A stretch of 64,000 bases of DNA from Wenzhouxiangella sediminis. GTDB taxonomy: Bacteria > Pseudomonadota > Gammaproteobacteria > Xanthomonadales > Wenzhouxiangellaceae. The position numbers were made by a program, and so were the translations under genes. The DNA lies in assembly GCF_003410055.1 (NCBI RefSeq), contig NZ_QUZK01000022.1, positions 62,001-126,000 on the forward strand, written 5' to 3'. How positions within the stretch are numbered: position 1 is the stretch's first letter; each line of letters begins with the position of its first letter. The notes under the pieces were generated by a model. The model made no database searches. It was given only the letters and a program-made list of their open reading frames with translations, and was not told the origin of the DNA. Positions 36,746-45,757 of this stretch are shown here, piece after piece.

Positions 36746-37621
36746 TCAGAAGGCCACCATCAACCCGACGCCGGAAAACGTCAGGCAGATGCCCGCCACG
36801 CGCCGCCAGTTCATCTCTTCTTTCAGGAACAGCCAGGCGAAGAGCACGATGAAGGCCGCGGCGGTTTCGTTGAGGACGGAGGCCACCGAGGCCTGGGTCA
36901 GCTTGTAGCCGGCCAACCACAGCATCATCGACACATAGCTGCCCAGCAGGCTGCCGACGACGATGACCGTCCACGGCTGCTTCGAACGATAGTGCAGCAT
37001 GGCGCGCGCCCAGCCGCGGGTCATGTAGAGGAACAGGAACATGCCGATCGTACCGGCAGCCAGGCGCACGCCCATCGTCCACATGAACGACTCGCTCTCG
37101 AGCACCGGTTTGACCATGACGATGCCGGCGGCCATCATCAGCACCGAGCCCGCTCCGAAGGCGACGCCCAGGCGAATGGCCCGCAGCGAAACATCGCGCC
37201 GGTTCTGCCGCCAGGTCACCAGCAGGATCCCGCCGAGCACCAGCACGAAACCGAAATACTGCCACCAGATCAGCACTTCGCCGAGGAACAGGATCGACAG
37301 CACGATCACGAACGGCGAATAGAGGCTGGCGACCACGCCGGTGCGCGACGCGCCCATCAGGTTGAGCGCGCGCAGGTACCAGGTATCGGCCACGGCGATG
37401 CCGACCACGCCCGAGACGACCACGACCAACCACTCCATCGACGAGTAAGCGGGCCAGCTGACGCCGTCGACCAGCAGGATCGTCGGCACCATCAGCCCCG
37501 TCGCCAGCACGTTCTTGAACAGGTTCAGCTCGAACGCCGGCAGACTTTCCCCGGAGCGCCGGAACAGGACGACCGCCAATGCCCAGCAGGCCGCGCAGGC
37601 GACCGAGAAGAACTCACCCAC
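36746..37621 (-). CDS. EamA/DMT superfamily permease
   Basis: A 291-residue transporter with ten hydrophobic segments in two EamA-type halves (about 1-135 and 150-291). It shows typical helix-end sequences such as YLRALNLMGASRTGVVASL and QASVASVLNETAAAFIVLFA. Substrate is unknown. The GTG start at 37621 lies within the 3' end of the VUT gene (8-nt overlap), so translation is coupled. Confidence 0.9.
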   Translation of the reverse strand: MGEFFSVACAACWALAVVLFRRSGESLPAFELNLFKNVLATGLMVPTILLVDGVSWPAYSSMEWLVVVVSGVVGIAVADTWYLRALNLMGASRTGVVASLYSPFVIVLSILFLGEVLIWWQYFGFVLVLGGILLVTWRQNRRDVSLRAIRLGVAFGAGSVLMMAAGIVMVKPVLESESFMWTMGVRLAAGTIGMFLFLYMTRGWARAMLHYRSKQPWTVIVVGSLLGSYVSMMLWLAGYKLTQASVASVLNETAAAFIVLFAWLFLKEEMNWRRVAGICLTFSGVGLMVAF

Positions 37622-38105
37622 GTCGAGCCACCACGCACCAGGGGACGAGAAGCGCCAGGGCGATGGCCACCTTGACGCCGTAGTCGCCGATGGCCAGCGT
37701 GACCCAGGGCATGGCGGTGCCCCAGAAAGCCAGCGCGAAGAACAGCGCCGTGTCCACCGCCGAGCCGATCACGCTCGAGAACAGCGGCGGCTGCCACCAG
37801 GCGCGCCTGCGCAGTCGGTTAAAGATGGCCACGTCCATCAACTGCGAAACCAGGAAGGCCGTGCCGGAGGCCATCGCGATCCGCGGGCTGGCCAGCCAGA
37901 TCGAGGCCAGCACCGCCAGCGCGAAACCGATGTAGACCACCTTTCTCGCCGCCGCGGGCCCGAAGCGGCGGTTGGTCAGGTCGGTCACGAAATACGACAC
38001 CGGATAGGTCAGCGCGCCCCAGGTCAGCCAGTCGTTGACCGGAAACTGGACGAGATAGTTGGCGCTGGCGACGACCAGCACCATGGCGAGAATCAGCAGG
38101 GGCAT
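37614..38105 (-). CDS. Queuosine precursor transporter (VUT/YhhQ family)
   Basis: A 163-residue membrane protein with about five hydrophobic segments. The pattern SANYLVQFPVNDWLTWGALT with VTDLTNRRFG and SGTAFLVSQLMDVAIFNRLR is that of VUT-family queuosine precursor importers. It is shorter than E. coli YhhQ but within the compact form of the family. It lies upstream of, and overlaps, the DMT permease gene. Confidence 0.88.
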   Translation of the reverse strand: MPLLILAMVLVVASANYLVQFPVNDWLTWGALTYPVSYFVTDLTNRRFGPAAARKVVYIGFALAVLASIWLASPRIAMASGTAFLVSQLMDVAIFNRLRRRAWWQPPLFSSVIGSAVDTALFFALAFWGTAMPWVTLAIGDYGVKVAIALALLVPWCVVARRG

Positions 38106-38244
38106 GATATCTGGGCACGGACGATCCGACAGGCGGCCATTCTACCGGCCCGCGCAGCGCGCCATCCAAGGGAATTCCTAGGGACGATCCTAGGGACGAT
38201 GCGGTATCCTCGGCATGAGAACCGAGGGAAGGTTGACCACTGCC

Positions 38245-39198
38245 ATGACGAACTGGCTGATCGTGTTGCTGGGACTGGTTGCGGCCTGGGTCCTGTTCTG
38301 GCTGCTGTGGCCGCGCCCGCTGGCGCGCCTGTTCATGGCCGCTGAGCGCAAGCAGGGTCGCCTGTCGATCCGTCGCGTGCGACAGGACGGATTCGACTGG
38401 CACGTTCTCGAAGGCGGCCACGGCGAGCCGCTGGTGCTCCTGCACGGTTTCAACGGCGACGGCTATCATTTCGCCCGCGTCTCGCGTCTGCTCGGCGCTC
38501 ATTTCCGCGTCATCGCACCCGACCTGCCCGGCTTCGGCCAGACCACCTTCCAAGGCGAACTCGACTACGACGTGGAATCGCAGGCCCGGCGGGTCCTGGC
38601 CCTGCTCGACGAGCTGGGCATCGAACGCTTCTACCTCGGCGGCAATTCCATGGGCGGCTATGTGGCCTGCGCCCTGGCGAGACTTGCGCCGGAGCGGGTT
38701 CGCGCGCTGTGGCTGATGAATCCCGGCGGACTCCAGACCGCGACGCTTTCACCGCTTTTCGAGGTCGTCTATCAGGGCGGCCACAACGCCCTGGTCGTGC
38801 GGAATCGCGAGGACTTCCAGCGACTGATGGACTACTGCTTCGTGCGCCCGCCCTGGCTGCCCCGACCGCTGGCGCGCGAGCTGGCCGATCGCGCCGCGCG
38901 ACACGCCGAACGGGCCCAGGACATATTCGACGCCATTCGCTTTCACTCCAAGCCGCTGGAGGACCTGGCCCGGGGCCTCGACATGCCGGCCCTGATCGTC
39001 TGGGGCCAGGCCGACCAGGTGCTGCACCCCGACGGCCTCAAGCTGCTTTCGGAGTGCATGCCCCAGGCTCAAACGCTGCTGATGCCGGCCACCGGCCACC
39101 TGCCGATGATCGAACAGCCACGGCCGACGGCCGAGGCCTGGATCAGCTTTGCCGAGTCGGCGGCCCGGCGGGAGACGCGCGAAGCGGCGCGAGTGTAG
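38245..39198 (+). CDS. Membrane-anchored alpha/beta hydrolase
   Basis: About 317 residues: an N-terminal transmembrane anchor (MTNWLIVLLGLVAAWVLFWL) and an alpha/beta hydrolase domain. Motifs are LVLLHGFNGDG (oxyanion hole), LGGNSMGGYVA (nucleophile elbow), VWGQADQVLHPDG (acid) and TGHLPMIEQP (histidine). Substrate is unknown, possibly an ester at the inner membrane. The ATG at 38245 has AGGGAAGG 12 nt upstream; an in-frame ATG at 38215 lacks a site. Confidence 0.88.
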   Translation: MTNWLIVLLGLVAAWVLFWLLWPRPLARLFMAAERKQGRLSIRRVRQDGFDWHVLEGGHGEPLVLLHGFNGDGYHFARVSRLLGAHFRVIAPDLPGFGQTTFQGELDYDVESQARRVLALLDELGIERFYLGGNSMGGYVACALARLAPERVRALWLMNPGGLQTATLSPLFEVVYQGGHNALVVRNREDFQRLMDYCFVRPPWLPRPLARELADRAARHAERAQDIFDAIRFHSKPLEDLARGLDMPALIVWGQADQVLHPDGLKLLSECMPQAQTLLMPATGHLPMIEQPRPTAEAWISFAESAARRETREAARV

Positions 39199-39269: not shown

Positions 39270-41594
39270 GTGGCCCGGCACGCGATTCCACCGGAACGCC
39301 TGCGATGGCAGCCCGACGGCAACGACATTCCCGGCGACTCGACCCGCGACATCCCGGTACTCGACGGCACGCTCGGCCAGGACGCGGCGCTCGAGGCCCT
39401 CCACTACGGCATCGCCAGTCCGGGCCACAACCAGCATGTGTTCCTGCGCGGCCCGCGCGGCAGCGGTCGGCGCAGGCTGCTCGATAGCCTGTTCGGAAGT
39501 TTGCGCCCCAAGGCGCGCCAGAATCGCGACTTCTGCTTCGTCCACAACTTCTCCAACCCCGACCGCCCCCGATTGATCATTCTGCCGCGCGGCGAAGGAC
39601 GCCCTTTCCAGAAGCAGATGCATCGCATCGCCCTGTTCGTGCGCGAACGGCTGCCCGACATTCTTGCCAACGACCCGATTCGCGGCCGCCGCGAAGCCCG
39701 GCGCGAGGCGGCCGAGCGCGACATCCGTCTGTTGCTGCGGCCGCTGGAGAAGAAACTCGAGGCCGAAGGCCTGGCCCTGATCCGCAGCCAGGCCGGCCCG
39801 AACGCGCGCCTGCAGGTTTCGGTTCGCATCATGGGCAAGCCCGTCTCCCAGGAAGAGTTCCGCAACATGGTGGCGCGCAAGCAGGCCACCGAGGAAGACC
39901 GCAAGAAATTCGAAGAGCGGATCAAGTCCTACGACGAAGAGATCAACAAGATCTCGCGGCAGATCCGCAAGAAGTGGCAGCAGGCCCAGCAGCACATCGA
40001 GCAGATCGACATAACCGAAACCGCCCGCATCATGGGCGAGATGACCGCCGAGGTCTCGCAACGCTTCAAGGCCGACGGAATCGAGGTGTACCTGCGCGAA
40101 GTCATCGACGACGTGCTGGAGAAGCGCATCGGGCACGAAACCAGCCAGCTCGCCGATCCGACCGTGCTCTACGGCGTCAACGTGCTCAACATGGGCCGCG
40201 AGGACAGCGGCGCTCCCGCCATCTCGACCAGTTCGATCTCTCCGGCCAGCCTGTTCGGCACCGTCGATCCGGCCTGGCGAAGCGGCGGCAGGGCCGTCGC
40301 GTCCTTCCAGGGCATCCGCTCGGGCACCCTGATCCAGGCCGACGGCGGTTTCCTGATTCTCGATGCCGAAGACCTGGCCAGCGAACCGGGCGTATTCCGC
40401 CAACTGCTGCGCATCCTGCGCGCCGGCGAGGTTTCCATTGCCGCGCCGACGGCCGACTGGAGCCAGGCCGCCCAGTCCCTGCGGCCGGAGGCCGTGCCCA
40501 TCGACGTGGGCGTCATCCTGGTCGGGGATGCGGCCGCCTACGCGCAACTGGAATCCATCAGCCGGGAGTTTTCCCGGCGCTTTCGCCTGCTGGCCGATCT
40601 CGAAGCCAGCGTTGAGCGCGACGGCGACGGAATCGACCGGACCTGCCGGTTCGTATCCGCCGTGGTGCAGCGCGAAGCCCTGCTGCCGCTGACGCGTCCG
40701 GGGCTGGCCGCCGTCGTGGAAATCAGCGCCCGTCTGTCCGACCAGCCGGGGCGGCTGACCACGCGCGTCGGCAGGCTCGCAGAAGTCATTCGCGAGGCCG
40801 CCTTTCTCGCTGCAGGAGACGACGAGACCGAAATAGGCCGCGAGCACGTCGAAGCCGCTTTCGGCAGGATTCGACACCGGGCCGGCCTGCCGGCGGCGGG
40901 AAGAATCCAGCACAGCGTCGACAGCGGCCTGATCCGACTGCGCGGCCGCTCGGCCGGCCAGCTCAACGTGATCAGCCGGGAGCGCCTGGCCGACGAGATG
41001 TTCGGCGCACCGGCCCGCCTGAGCCTGACCGCCGCAAGGGGCGCCGGCAACGGCATCTCCCTGGAAAGCGGCGAAGGCGAGTTGCCGGTTCGGCAATTCC
41101 TGCTGCCGATGCTCACCGAACTGTTGCACCTGGACGCCCTGCCCGACCTGCGCGTGGCGATGACCCTCGATCCCGCCGTGCTGCCGGATGATGCGGCATC
41201 GACCCTGCTCGGCCAGGCCTGCGGCCTGATCGCCGTGCTGGCCGGCCTCTCCGTCCGGCAGGAGCTGGCCGTGATCGGCAGCATCGACGCCCGCGGCCAG
41301 GTCGGACGGGTCGATTACCTGAATGAACGAATCGAAGGTTATTTCGACGCCTGTAACCGCGTGGGTCTGAACGGCCAGCAGGGCGTCATCATCCCGGCTG
41401 TGGACAAGGATCGGCTGGCCCTGGACAAGCGCGTCATCAAGGCCTGCACCAACGACCAGTTCCACATCATGGCCGCCGCCAGCATCGCCGAGGCCCTCGA
41501 ACGCCTGACCGGCAAGACCGCCGGCATCTGGAAGGACGACGGCTTCCCCGAAGACTCCGTGCTGGGGATGGCGCGGGCGAGCCTGCAGGCCTAG
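39270..41594 (+). CDS. Lon-family (S16, LonH-type) protein with inactivated ATPase and protease sites
   Basis: A 774-residue protein with the architecture of the YcbZ/LonH group: AAA region with an inserted helical segment (about 130-260) and C-terminal Lon protease domain (about 590-750). Family sequence is clear, e.g. GGFLILDAEDLA and QGVIIPA. Key residues are replaced: the P-loop reads GPRGSGRRR (61-69) with Arg for Lys; the catalytic serine position in the GDSAS motif reads DDAAS (Ala642); the catalytic lysine in NEKIEG reads NERIEG (Arg687). It is therefore probably catalytically dead, yet the frame is intact, so a scaffolding or regulatory role is possible. Confidence 0.88.
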   Translation: MARHAIPPERLRWQPDGNDIPGDSTRDIPVLDGTLGQDAALEALHYGIASPGHNQHVFLRGPRGSGRRRLLDSLFGSLRPKARQNRDFCFVHNFSNPDRPRLIILPRGEGRPFQKQMHRIALFVRERLPDILANDPIRGRREARREAAERDIRLLLRPLEKKLEAEGLALIRSQAGPNARLQVSVRIMGKPVSQEEFRNMVARKQATEEDRKKFEERIKSYDEEINKISRQIRKKWQQAQQHIEQIDITETARIMGEMTAEVSQRFKADGIEVYLREVIDDVLEKRIGHETSQLADPTVLYGVNVLNMGREDSGAPAISTSSISPASLFGTVDPAWRSGGRAVASFQGIRSGTLIQADGGFLILDAEDLASEPGVFRQLLRILRAGEVSIAAPTADWSQAAQSLRPEAVPIDVGVILVGDAAAYAQLESISREFSRRFRLLADLEASVERDGDGIDRTCRFVSAVVQREALLPLTRPGLAAVVEISARLSDQPGRLTTRVGRLAEVIREAAFLAAGDDETEIGREHVEAAFGRIRHRAGLPAAGRIQHSVDSGLIRLRGRSAGQLNVISRERLADEMFGAPARLSLTAARGAGNGISLESGEGELPVRQFLLPMLTELLHLDALPDLRVAMTLDPAVLPDDAASTLLGQACGLIAVLAGLSVRQELAVIGSIDARGQVGRVDYLNERIEGYFDACNRVGLNGQQGVIIPAVDKDRLALDKRVIKACTNDQFHIMAAASIAEALERLTGKTAGIWKDDGFPEDSVLGMARASLQA

Positions 41595-41637: not shown

Positions 41638-42312
41638 TCAGTCAATCTGACGCAAGAACGTCCGCTGGCCCGACACACCCAGCTTGTCGAGCGAGCGCTC
41701 GAGGCGTTTGAGCATCGGTTCGGGATCGACGGGCTTGTCATCGATTCGGGCTCGGTCGAAGTCGATGACGTGCCAGTGGCCGTCGCCGTCGATGAGCAGG
41801 TTGTGGGCGTTCAGGTCGGGATGGACGACGCCGGCGGCGAAGAAGCGGTGCAGGGTTCGGCCCAGGCGGCGCCAGTGGAATTCCTCGAGGATGTCGGCCG
41901 CCTGGGGCAGGCTGATGGTGTTCTCGATCAGTCGGGTCAATATGGCAGCGCGATAGGTCAGGCCCAGGCGTTGGCAGCCGGCCATCAGCGGTGTCGGCAC
42001 CGGCAGATCCAGCTGGCGCAGGCGTGCGAGGATCCTGAACTCCCGGAAGCTGCGGCTGCGCGTGTAGCCGGTGAAGAAATACCGGTCCTTGCTGACGCGC
42101 GCCACCATGCCGCCGCGCAGGTAGCGGCGAAGGACGGCCGGGCCCGCCTCGGTGGTGACCGCCAGCGCCCGGCCTCGCCCACCGAATTCCGCCAGCACGG
42201 CGTCCCGTAATTCCCAGAACCGGGGTTGGAGCCACTCGGGGCTGACCGCGTCGAGGGCCGACGCGTCATATAGAATATGCAGTGAGCCTGCTTGCAGTTC
42301 CGATTCCGGCAT
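41638..42312 (-). CDS. kdkA: 3-deoxy-D-manno-octulosonic acid kinase
   Basis: A 224-residue protein-kinase-fold enzyme. The RRYLRGGMVARVSKDRYFF region is typical of KdkA, and the catalytic loop VVHPDLNAHNLLID with IDFDRARID completes the site. It phosphorylates KDO in the LPS inner core. The ATG at 42312 was chosen. It is divergent from a GT9 glycosyltransferase gene with a 38-bp intergenic region, which supports an LPS role. Confidence 0.9.
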   Translation of the reverse strand: MPESELQAGSLHILYDASALDAVSPEWLQPRFWELRDAVLAEFGGRGRALAVTTEAGPAVLRRYLRGGMVARVSKDRYFFTGYTRSRSFREFRILARLRQLDLPVPTPLMAGCQRLGLTYRAAILTRLIENTISLPQAADILEEFHWRRLGRTLHRFFAAGVVHPDLNAHNLLIDGDGHWHVIDFDRARIDDKPVDPEPMLKRLERSLDKLGVSGQRTFLRQID

Positions 42313-42350
42313 ATCGCCCCGGTCGCATTTCGATTGAGTTTCGCCGTATC

Positions 42351-43403
42351 GTGCCCGATCCACAGACGAACGAACCGCCCGGATCCCTCTGCCTCTTGCG
42401 CCTTTCGGCGCTCGGCGACGTCTGCAACACCGTGCCGCTGGTACGCGCCATCCAGCGCGCCTGGCCTGAGACGGCCCTGACCTGGATCGTCGGCAAGGCC
42501 GAACATCGGCTGGTTCACGATCTCCCCGGTGTCGAGTTCATTGTATTCGACAAGCGCGGTGCTTTCGCCGGCTTCAGGGACGCCCGCAGCCAGCTAGCGG
42601 GACGCCGCTTCGATACGCTGCTGCTCGCCCAGGTCTCGCAGCGCTCAACGATTCTTGCCAGCCAGGTGCGCGCCGACCGGCGCATCGGCTTCGACCGGGC
42701 GCGAGCCCGGCCGGGACACGGCCTGGTCATCAACGAGCGCATCGGCGCGGTCTCCTTCCAGCACCAGATGCACGCCTTCCTGGAGTTCGCCCGTTACCTG
42801 GGCTTGCCCACCGAGGGCGTCGACCGGCGCCTGCCCCTGCCCGAGGAAGCCCGCGCTTTCGCACGGCAGCACCAACCCGAGGCGCGCCGCGCCGTGATCA
42901 TCAGCCCGGCTTCGAGCCACACCGGGCGCAACTGGCACGCTGAAGGTTACGCTGCCGTGTCCGACTGGATCGTGGATGAGACGGGACGCCCCGTGATCCT
43001 GATGGGCGGACCGGGGCCGGCGGAACAGGAACTGGGACGAGCCATCGAGGCGAAGGCCCGCAATGCCGTGCTCAACCTGATCGGGCAAGACACGATAAAG
43101 CAGGCCCTGGCGATGTTCGAGCGGGCTGCCTGCGTGATCGCCCCCGACTCCGGTCCGGCCCACTTCGCCGATGCCATGGGCACACCGGTCGTGGGGCTCT
43201 ACGCGGCCACCTGGGCCCGGCGCTCGGGGCCCATCGACAGCCTGGAGCACACCGTCGACCGCTTTCCCCAGGCGGCCCGCGAATTCGCGGGCCGGGAACC
43301 GGAAGAACTGCGCTGGGGCAAGCGACTCGAGCGTCCCGGGGTGATGAGACTCATCACCCCGAAAATGGTGATCGATAGGCTCAAGCGCCTGCTCGACGCC
43401 TGA
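42351..43403 (+). CDS. Glycosyltransferase family 9 (heptosyltransferase-like)
   Basis: A 350-residue GT-B enzyme of the WaaC/WaaF type. The N terminus CLLRLSALGDVCNTVPLVRA is the family fingerprint, and ISPASSHTGRNWHAEGYA and PDSGPAHFADAMGTPVVGLY form the donor site. It probably adds heptose to the LPS core. The GTG at 42351 was chosen so as not to overlap kdkA. Confidence 0.92.
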   Translation: MPDPQTNEPPGSLCLLRLSALGDVCNTVPLVRAIQRAWPETALTWIVGKAEHRLVHDLPGVEFIVFDKRGAFAGFRDARSQLAGRRFDTLLLAQVSQRSTILASQVRADRRIGFDRARARPGHGLVINERIGAVSFQHQMHAFLEFARYLGLPTEGVDRRLPLPEEARAFARQHQPEARRAVIISPASSHTGRNWHAEGYAAVSDWIVDETGRPVILMGGPGPAEQELGRAIEAKARNAVLNLIGQDTIKQALAMFERAACVIAPDSGPAHFADAMGTPVVGLYAATWARRSGPIDSLEHTVDRFPQAAREFAGREPEELRWGKRLERPGVMRLITPKMVIDRLKRLLDA

Positions 43404-43414
43404 CTACTGGCTGA

Positions 43415-45757
43415 TCACCAGTTGCCGCACTCGATTTCCGACTGGGTCGTCTCGCCGCCGTCGAGGCGCGTGACCTCCACGTTGGCGGTCGCGGTGGCAC
43501 CCGACGGGTCGCTGATCGTGTAGCGGAACCGGTTGCGGCCGTTGCAGGTTTCACTGACCTGGAAAGTGATCGTGCCGTCCCCGTTGACGGTATATTGCGC
43601 CGGACTTCCATACCACTGCTCTACGGAGATGATCTCCAGCGGGTCGCCGTCCGGATCGAAGTCGTTGGCCAGCACATCGACAGTCACCGCCTGGCCGGCG
43701 GGCGTGCTGGCCTGGTCCGGGTTGGCCACCGGGGCGCGGTTGGCGAAGGCGACATCGATGGTCACGGTCGCCGTTGCTTCTCCACCCCGACCGTCGCTGA
43801 TCGTGTAGCTGAAGCTGTCGCTGCCGACGAATTCGTCGTTCGGCAGGTAGCGCAACGCGTCTCCGGACTGCGAGACAGTGCCGTTTCCGGGCTGCGTGAA
43901 GCCGGCAATGCTCAATGCGTCGCCATCGGGATCGCTCGCCGCTGCGAGCACGTCGATGTCGACCGGCTGGTTGCGCAGCGTCGCGGCGGTCAGGTCGCCC
44001 ACCACGGGCGGCTGATTGGGCGACTGGACGGTCACGGTCACCGTCGCACTCGCCTCGCCGCCGAAGCCGTCCTCCACCGTGTAGCTGAAGCTGTCGGTTC
44101 CGGTGAAGCCTTCGTTCGGCGTGTAGAGCACCTGCCCGCCGCTGGCCGAAGCCTGGCCGTTGGCCGGCTGCGTGACTCCCACGATGGTGAGCGTGTCGCC
44201 GTCGGCGTCGCTGTCGTTGGCAAGCACGTCGAGCGCGTTGTCGGTGGAGTCGGTGTCGACCGTGTACTGGTCGTTACCGGCCTGCGGCGCCTCGTTGGCG
44301 AACTCGATTTCGCCCTCTGTGACCGTCGCCGTGCTTTCCTGGTAGCGGTAGTAGTCCACGATGCGCTTGTGGCGGACCGGGTTGCGCAGAGCGCGACGGA
44401 TCCAGGGCGCTTCGACCGGCACCTCGACCTGGCGGATTTCGGTGGCCGGTTCATCCGGTCCGACGGTCACGGTCTCGGTGCTCGAACGCTCGGTCACGAA
44501 GCTGATTTCGACGCGGCGGTTCTTCGAACGGTTCTCGGGGCCGTCGTTGGGGAAGCGCGGCTCGGTCTCGCCTTCACCGCGCCAGTCGATCCGGTCGGCC
44601 TCGACACCGCGGGAGGTCAGGTAATCCACAACCGAGCGGGCCCGACGCTCGCTCAAGCCCTGGTTGTATTCCTCGGTGCCGATGTTGCAGGTGTGACCGA
44701 CGATCTGAATGTCGCCGACCAGGCCACCGTCGTCGACCACGGCCAGGATTTCGTCGAGCGTATTCTCGGCCGCGGGCTTGAGGACCGAGCTGTCGAAATC
44801 GAAGGTCGTGCGATCGGTCAGGGTGACCTCGTTGACGACCATGCGTTCCTCAGTGCGCGATTCACCGGCGACCTCGACCTCCACGTCACGATACTGGCGA
44901 GACGGGCGGAAGGAATTCTCGGAGCCGCCGAAGCTGAAGCTGTAGACGATACTGCCGCGCAGGTCGTTGTCGTCGACCACGAAGTCGCCGTCCTTGTACG
45001 CATAGCTGGTGCGCAGGCTCAGGCTGTGCGGCGAATTGCGGAAGTGCTTGTCAAGAGAGAGCGAGGCGGTCGTCTGCGAGGAGCTGTAGTCACCCTCTTC
45101 ATAGTCCAGCCCGCCGCGCAGGCGGATCAGGGGGTCGTCGAAGAATCGCTCGGCGCGCAGGCCCAGGCCCCACTCGTACGGCTCTTCAAACCACTCGGTG
45201 ACGGTCTCGATCGTGTCCACGCGCGAAAATGCCCGGCCTTCGATCTCGCCGGTGACCAGCATTTCGTCGATGGTGGTGGCGCGATCGACCAGGCGCTCGT
45301 CGGACAGGGCGGTCATGCCGTAGCCCGAGAACGCCCAGTTGCGGCCTTCCCAGCCGGCGCCGAAGGTCAGCTTGCGATCCTCGAACTGGTTCTGGTCGGC
45401 GGCGATGAACAGCTTGGCCACGTTGCCGTCGGTGTACACCGGCCCGTCGGGGCCTTCCTCGGCGGTCTCGTTGATCAACCAGTGGTAATTGAGCTTGACG
45501 CCGCCGGCGCCCTCGCTGCCCAGCCAGCCGTCGCCGATGAAGCTGGAACGCTGCGACTCGTAAAGTGCGGCCTGGAACTCACCGACAACGTCGAACTCGC
45601 TGTCGAGCCCGATGCCGATACGGTAGCGGTCACCGATGAAATGGAAGGTGGGCGTGCCGGCCTGGCTGCGGGGTTCTTCCCCGTCGTCGACCTGGGCCAC
45701 GGCCACGGTGGCGAGACTCTGGGCAAGCACCAGAGATAGTAGCAATTTGCGAAACAT
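43415..45757 (-). CDS. OmpA-family outer-membrane protein with C-terminal Ig-like repeats
   Basis: A 780-residue protein: signal peptide (1-21), a beta-barrel region (about 35-290) rich in aromatic-ended strands, an OmpA peptidoglycan-binding domain (about 310-425) with FDFDSSVLKPAA and QGLSERRARSVVDYL, then three cadherin/Big_9-like repeats (about 489-575, 580-668, 669-770) each with LAND.D.DGD-type calcium-style motifs. The usual GHTD of the OmpA domain reads GHTC (Cys357). Two cysteines near the C terminus may pair. The order barrel-OmpA-Ig is unusual. Confidence 0.88.
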   Translation of the reverse strand: MFRKLLLSLVLAQSLATVAVAQVDDGEEPRSQAGTPTFHFIGDRYRIGIGLDSEFDVVGEFQAALYESQRSSFIGDGWLGSEGAGGVKLNYHWLINETAEEGPDGPVYTDGNVAKLFIAADQNQFEDRKLTFGAGWEGRNWAFSGYGMTALSDERLVDRATTIDEMLVTGEIEGRAFSRVDTIETVTEWFEEPYEWGLGLRAERFFDDPLIRLRGGLDYEEGDYSSSQTTASLSLDKHFRNSPHSLSLRTSYAYKDGDFVVDDNDLRGSIVYSFSFGGSENSFRPSRQYRDVEVEVAGESRTEERMVVNEVTLTDRTTFDFDSSVLKPAAENTLDEILAVVDDGGLVGDIQIVGHTCNIGTEEYNQGLSERRARSVVDYLTSRGVEADRIDWRGEGETEPRFPNDGPENRSKNRRVEISFVTERSSTETVTVGPDEPATEIRQVEVPVEAPWIRRALRNPVRHKRIVDYYRYQESTATVTEGEIEFANEAPQAGNDQYTVDTDSTDNALDVLANDSDADGDTLTIVGVTQPANGQASASGGQVLYTPNEGFTGTDSFSYTVEDGFGGEASATVTVTVQSPNQPPVVGDLTAATLRNQPVDIDVLAAASDPDGDALSIAGFTQPGNGTVSQSGDALRYLPNDEFVGSDSFSYTISDGRGGEATATVTIDVAFANRAPVANPDQASTPAGQAVTVDVLANDFDPDGDPLEIISVEQWYGSPAQYTVNGDGTITFQVSETCNGRNRFRYTISDPSGATATANVEVTRLDGGETTQSEIECGNW

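Follow-up and report, generated by a model that had tools for sequence, protein, structure and literature searches.

The closest described relatives of the protein analysed here are MtaLonC and TTC1975, which represent the LonC branch of Lon peptidases (MEROPS S16.007). According to PMC3391209, MtaLonC has an intact Ser-Lys dyad and cleaves peptides independently of ATP, the two LonC enzymes assayed in that paper and in the work cited there showed no ATPase activity, and LonC proteins carry an insertion with the consensus CX3GLX(G/E). A passage on LonA and LonB in PMC9569914 puts exactly 42 residues between the Ser and the Lys in each subfamily, and non-peptidase homologues of Lon are mentioned in the same source. 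Lon-fold domains can also be used without proteolysis: RadA and ComM employ them as a hexamer scaffold (PMC11612176), and the Lon domain of BrxL is inactive (PMC12839542).

In the window, by which we mean the whole stretch of 64,000 nucleotides of Wenzhouxiangella sediminis DNA that was analysed, a preliminary description had reported an intact 774-codon frame related to Lon. This frame was confirmed, and it begins with a GTG codon. The gene and its domains, whose boundaries were set in the present analysis, are as follows.

39270..41594, forward strand: 774 aa from a GTG start, predicted to be a Lon-like pseudo-peptidase belonging to the LonC / AAA_32 branch (frame, Pfam, PDB match, model)
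39525..40139, forward strand: helical domain, residues 86-290, better conserved than any other part in the dyad-lost genus and with a positive mean net charge
40140..40904, forward strand: AAA-like core and LID, residues 291-545 (Pfam)
40905..41513, forward strand: Lon protease-fold domain, residues 546-748, with an eroded active site (PDB alignment, fold match, invariant positions)

The 774-aa protein matched AAA_32, LonB_AAA-LID and LonC_helical of Pfam above the cut-offs, and Lon_C below the cut-off. The scores of PF13654 (99.8 bits, cut-off 21) and PF20437 (49.6 bits, cut-off 24) indicate that the AAA_32 core and the LonC helical domain, respectively, are present, as in MtaLonC and TTC1975, which are also its nearest PDB relatives by sequence. 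An AlphaFold2 model based on an alignment of 54 sequences had a mean pLDDT of 88.8, and its top match among solved folds was MtaLonC (Z 35.9, rmsd 4.3 over 573 residues). The likeness extends to the LonC insertion after the Lys helix, which reads CNRVGLNG from C695, and to a P-loop without Lys. Unlike MtaLonC, the 774-aa protein has neither the catalytic Lys nor the Asp that precedes the Ser, its SGxIHTKG strand is no longer recognisable, and its conserved part is the helical domain. From LonA it differs in having Ala643 where LonA has Pro before the Ser, and no LonA N-terminal domain was found among its Pfam matches. When the locus was scanned for promoters and terminators, three sites resembled terminators (2.6 expected) and one, within the gene, resembled a promoter (0.3 expected).

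The label of LonH/YcbZ type, given in the preliminary description, was right as to the superfamily but too loose. E. coli YcbZ is 25% identical to the 774-aa protein over 429 aa (122 bits), it is only 586 aa long, and its GDSAS and NEKIEG motifs are intact and 43 apart. A second AAA_32 protein encoded in the same genome is nearer to YcbZ (35% over 473 aa, 258 bits), which, by scores and not by a tree, argues against orthology of the 774-aa protein with YcbZ. Among the open-licence papers listed for YcbZ/LonH and AsrA, we found nothing on the present dyad-lost clade.

Three catalytic positions had been described as independently replaced: the Lys of the P-loop, the nucleophilic Ser and the Lys of the dyad. 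The codons in question, read and compared in alignments, are listed below.

39468..39470, forward strand: Arg67, codon CGG, where the P-loop would have its Lys; frequent across the family, no specific loss (codon read, alignment)
41193..41195, forward strand: Ala642, codon GCG, aligned with the Gly of GDSAS, not with the Ser (codon read, alignment)
41196..41198, forward strand: Ala643, codon GCA, at the place of the Asp before the Ser (codon read)
41199..41201, forward strand: Ser644, codon TCG, a Ser retained at the nucleophile position, 43 residues ahead of the Lys column (codon read, alignment)
41328..41330, forward strand: Arg687, codon CGA, replacing the catalytic Lys (codon read, alignment)

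Only one of the three losses stood. The column of Arg687 holds Lys in 142/142 dyad-bearing rows (at least two of which are duplicate contigs, L117 of L020 and L119 of L023), and in the printed PDB alignment, as we read it, Arg687 lies opposite the Lys and Ser644 opposite the Ser of MtaLonC. Ala642, taken at first for the lost Ser, proved to be the wrong residue: in all 142 rows, Gly occupies column 642 and Ser column 644, and the distance from Ser to Lys is 43 in each of them, in agreement with the 42 intervening residues given in PMC9569914. Since 687 minus 43 is 644, Ser644 occupies the nucleophile column, and the Ser is kept in the 774-aa protein. The HMMER posterior of the 774-aa protein was only about 0.5 around the Ser644 stretch, and HMMER placed the relative L005 in the other register there; this register alone disagrees with the alignment and the spacing of 43, which rule out Ala642 as the nucleophile position. 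The Arg of the P-loop had been misread as a loss of the ATPase Lys. It is ordinary for the family, occurring in 41/78 rows of an 80-locus set (Lys in 37/78), in 57/64 dyad-bearing rows from the order, paralogs included (Lys in 0/64), and in P. aeruginosa PA7. Being common in dyad-bearing rows, it is ruled out as a sign of decay. Ala, Ser or Asn stands at this place in some dyad-bearing rows of the order.

A sequencing error at Arg687 is ruled out, as the Arg is common to the orthologs. So is a Ser-Lys pair that moved elsewhere: in the rows read, there is no clade-wide Ser near the motif and no Lys in the Lys column. That Ser644 and Arg687 form an odd dyad and the protein is still a peptidase we consider very unlikely. 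A Ser stands 43 before the Arg in the 774-aa protein and in its relatives L004, L005 and L008, as such a dyad would need, but it is found in just 5/17 full-length rows of the genus and 6/24 dyad-lost rows. Moreover, the Asp at position 643 and the SGxIHTKG strand are gone, the number of fixed protease positions falls from 104 to 14, and Arg is a poor general base. Instead of the Ser-Lys dyad with 42 residues between that marks a LonC peptidase, the 774-aa protein has Ser644 and Arg687. Judged by these residues, it is a non-peptidase homologue, not a LonC peptidase (MEROPS S16.007), and its function is probably not proteolytic.

To see how far the replacement is shared, which the preliminary description had proposed to check, we searched 30 genomes at the level of the genus, 43 at that of the family, 250 for the order and 369 for the class, many of them incomplete. 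Residues were read in 64 dyad-bearing rows from the order, in 29 of at most 30 class-level loci (97 class genomes had a match), and in the best 80 of at least 584 loci from named genomes. Among the loci read, the loss of the dyad was confined to this family: it was found in 18 genomes of the genus (in one of them as two fragments), in five of the genus g6, and in G035. The Lys column held no Lys in 24/24 dyad-lost rows, 21 of which had Arg and one each Gln, Cys and Ser. Both dyad residues were kept in 29/29 class-level loci and in 78/80 loci from named genomes, where the exceptions were L116, itself a member of the dyad-lost clade, and L188, a fragment. We computed a tree for 99 rows, using residues 30-545 and hence no part of the protease domain. 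On it, the dyad loss needed a single change (support 94 with the long-branched L028 and 99 without it), and the dyad-bearing L020 of the same family was sister to the dyad-lost clade (support 86). The genus did not form one clade, as g6 fell inside it (support 88); the loss of the dyad predates the genus. The gene is missing from 12/30 genomes of the genus, several of which are 94-99% complete (G013, with one short weak match, was counted among the 12), and its branch is present in 25/43 genomes of the family.

The gene is not simply decaying. No stop was found inside any matched frame in the genus and family searches. The whole-gene dN/dS, a proposed check that we ran by pairwise counting, in which dS comes near saturation in wide pairs, was low (0.06 to 0.26) in five pairs of the 774-aa protein with relatives 97-65% identical to it: 0.058 with L004 (dS 0.33), 0.159 with L005, 0.208 with L006, 0.257 with L007 and 0.234 with L008. 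In the same five pairs, the dN/dS of the protease domain, 0.106 to 0.512, lay above those of the helical and AAA domains. It was higher in wider pairs, reaching 0.822 for L030 with L065, and 0.958 for the 774-aa protein with L009, where dS is near saturation. The helical domain of the 774-aa protein, by comparison, was 100% identical to that of L004 although dS in this domain was 0.40.

The pattern was the same across the genus. The helical domain was more alike than the protease domain in 136/136 pairs of the dyad-lost genus and in 9/10 pairs of the dyad-lost g6, the sole exception being L063-L064 (protease 84%, helical 79%). The opposite held for dyad-bearing sets, with 0/136 and 0/276 such pairs, 21/105 for the paralog (15 rows, of which the same genus contributes 13) and 0/15 pairs of the f8 paralog. 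Close pairs illustrate the difference: dyad-lost L009 and L013 are 94% identical in the helical and 81% in the protease domain, whereas dyad-bearing L074 and L075 are 94% and 98% identical, respectively. Counted as positions unchanged in 17/17 rows of the dyad-lost genus, or in at least 30/32 dyad-bearing rows, so that the thresholds differ, invariant positions fell from 104/203 in dyad-bearing rows to 14/203 in the dyad-lost genus in the protease domain, from 22 to 10 in the N-terminal part and from 69 to 45 in the AAA part; only in the helical domain did they rise, from 19/205 to 65/205. Constraint is reversed in the dyad-lost genus, down in the protease domain and up in the helical domain. 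The helical domain also differs in charge: its net charge averages +5.4 in the dyad-lost genus (range -1 to 8), compared with -7.4 in the dyad-bearing f8 set, -6.6 in f9 and -13.5 in the paralog.

Neutral decay of the whole gene is thus ruled out by the open frames, the low dN/dS and the constraint on the helical domain. A milder version, in which the protease was lost and the remainder is now under weakening selection on its way out, fits the absence of the gene from 12/30 genomes of the genus and the two high dN/dS values of the protease domain in wider pairs. However, the frames without stops, the helical domain identical to that of L004 at such a dS, its 65 positions invariant in 17 genus rows, and a dyad loss older than the genus all speak against it, and we regard it as quite improbable. 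The absence of the Lys from 24/24 dyad-lost rows, the single origin of its loss, the open frames, the low dN/dS and the shift of constraint to the helical domain all support the core idea of the preliminary description, namely a Lon retained for something other than catalysis, so that its interpretation is right in outline.

One such role would be the regulation of an active Lon, either in mixed rings or by substrate delivery. A second copy, sought as had been proposed, was found: the genome encodes a LonA with a strong Lon_C match (G000:C5) and the AAA_32 paralog (G000:C48:58000-68000, L033), whose dyad motifs GDSAS and SEKVEG are intact. The P-loop of this paralog reads GPRGVDRH. Both potential targets are common, the paralog being present in 12/18 genus genomes that have the Lon-like gene (the dyad was read in 11 of the 12) and a strong LonA match in 28/30 genus genomes. 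The paralog does not always accompany the gene, however. No AAA_32 paralog was detected in 6/18 genomes, five of which are incomplete at 65-90%, but the sixth, G027, is a single contig at 95%, and in 2 genus genomes the paralog is present and the Lon-like gene absent. In addition, the 774-aa protein and the paralog are only about 27% identical. The six genomes without it disfavour the paralog as the only target, while LonA, found nearly everywhere, is a possible one. Thus, the dominant regulator of an active Lon that had been suggested gained no direct support, and we consider a regulatory role unlikely.

The neighbourhood of the gene offers another candidate partner. Three of the flanking genes are conserved.

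38215..39198, forward strand: alpha/beta hydrolase with a membrane anchor, most similar to 6i8w (PlaF) among solved structures, 71 bp upstream of the Lon-like gene, conserved neighbour (PDB match, neighbourhood comparison)
41638..42363, reverse strand: Kdo kinase (KdkA), convergent, conserved flank (neighbourhood comparison)
42282..43403, forward strand: glycosyltransferase family 9 (heptosyltransferase-like), conserved flank (neighbourhood comparison)

The hydrolase lies upstream on the same strand in 17/18 genus genomes with the Lon-like gene, with a cut hydrolase end in G021. In the 18th, G015, the contig ends 139 bp upstream of the Lon-like gene, and the hydrolase is found at the end of another contig. 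The same upstream position was seen in each of the 6 remaining dyad-lost genomes, in the dyad-bearing G031 (at 308 bp), and in 10/12 dyad-bearing f8 rows, within about 110 bp in nine of them and at 753 bp in L071; there was no hydrolase in 1485 bp upstream of L070, and L078 has no upstream DNA. As dyad-bearing relatives share it, the association is older than the dyad loss. The f9 loci have less than 0.5 kb of upstream sequence, except for L029, so that absence of the hydrolase there cannot be inferred. No hydrolase matched within 3.7 kb on each side of the paralog in this genome, or in flanking stretches of 0 to 6 kb around distant homologs. The hydrolase does not need the Lon-like protein, as it is present in 41/43 genomes of the family and the Lon branch in 25. 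In 11 Lon-less genomes of the genus, the genes next after the hydrolase, with no Lon between, are those for the Kdo kinase and glycosyltransferase (9 genomes) or that for the glycosyltransferase (2 genomes). Adjacency may also be due to a common promoter or to mere inertia in the order of genes, since much of the neighbourhood is conserved.

Other features of the neighbourhood were recorded. A gene for an OmpA-domain protein with three Big_9 / cadherin-like stretches (43415-45757) is a neighbour in many relatives. A Vut_1 / queuosine-precursor-transporter-like frame (37614-38105) encodes 163 aa, the NCBIfam models being 201 and 221 long. In g6 (L109, L110, L112, L232), a PNPase block directly follows Lon in inverted order, a local rearrangement. 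The hydrolase match in L205 (G028:C149) contains one in-frame TAG.

The top PDB match of the hydrolase is PlaF (6i8w, 6e-56), with which it shares one N-terminal transmembrane helix and a nucleophile motif, here GNSMGG; its catalytic motifs were readable in every aligned row. PlaF is a single-pass membrane phospholipase A1 that faces the periplasm (PMC9132575), where a cytosolic Lon could not reach it, and this counts against the hydrolase as a partner. In 47 rows, however, the charge was at most +1 before the helix of the hydrolase and +1 to +7 after it. By this rule of thumb, the flanks point to a cytosolic catalytic domain, opposite to that of PlaF; the assignment hangs on the start codon, since the side before the helix was counted from the last Met, and with the frame start at 38215 the hydrolase of the window would have two Arg and one Glu on that side.

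The explanation that we prefer, and to which we give an even chance, is that the 774-aa protein is a pseudo-peptidase of the LonC branch, a ring that does not cut, whose helical domain binds a partner, with the hydrolase as the likeliest candidate. The catalytic Lys was lost, with a single origin on the tree, in the ancestor of the clade, and mostly to Arg. The nucleophile position, the preceding Asp and the SGxIHTKG strand drift, whereas purifying selection has preserved the frame and the Lon-type sequence, and the helical domain most of all. The predicted ring would still be of the Lon type, and its conserved, on average positively charged helical domain would serve for binding. The target would most likely be the neighbouring hydrolase, or the substrates or membrane surface of that enzyme, and the action on it may be holding, gating or chaperoning. 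In the ancestor, where the gene already adjoined that of the hydrolase, this target was probably a substrate for degradation. Some observations count against this explanation, namely the protease-domain dN/dS against L009, the lower numbers of invariant positions in the N-terminal and AAA parts, and the Ser that is still present at 644.

The positive helical domain could alternatively bind nucleic acid or membrane lipid, in a ring that uses its Lon-fold domain as a scaffold in the manner of RadA, ComM or BrxL. RadA and BrxL chains are among the fold matches, and the precedents of the RadA and ComM scaffolds and of the inactive BrxL domain fit such a use. These proteins have other ATPase parts and roles, and here it is a whole LonC-type protein that lost the dyad. 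A protein of the RadA or BrxL kind would have an ATPase part of RecA or MCM type with a DNA role; the Pfam ATPase match above cut-off in the 774-aa protein is AAA_32. Against this alternative, the Pfam search of the 774-aa protein found no DNA-binding module, a mean charge is weak evidence when single rows go down to -1, and most of the neighbouring genes have to do with the envelope or with transport. We therefore assign a low probability to this alternative.

Returning to the pseudo-peptidase as possibly a partner of the upstream hydrolase, a stronger form of this reading can be proposed, although we are inclined to doubt it: a LonC-type protease would have turned into a dedicated non-proteolytic lipase partner. 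The ancestor would have been able to cut, and in the clade the protein would only hold or chaperone the lipase or the lipid surface of the latter. Contact would be made through the helical domain, and lipase and pseudo-Lon would form a two-gene module.

Among the open-licence papers listed by our searches, none describes a complete LonC-type protein whose dyad is gone and which nevertheless went on evolving under constraint. The swap of constraint, down in the protease domain and up in the helical domain, is clean and repeated across the genus. With no proteolysis to interfere, the binding partner of a Lon helical domain becomes directly testable, and the hydrolase is the first candidate.
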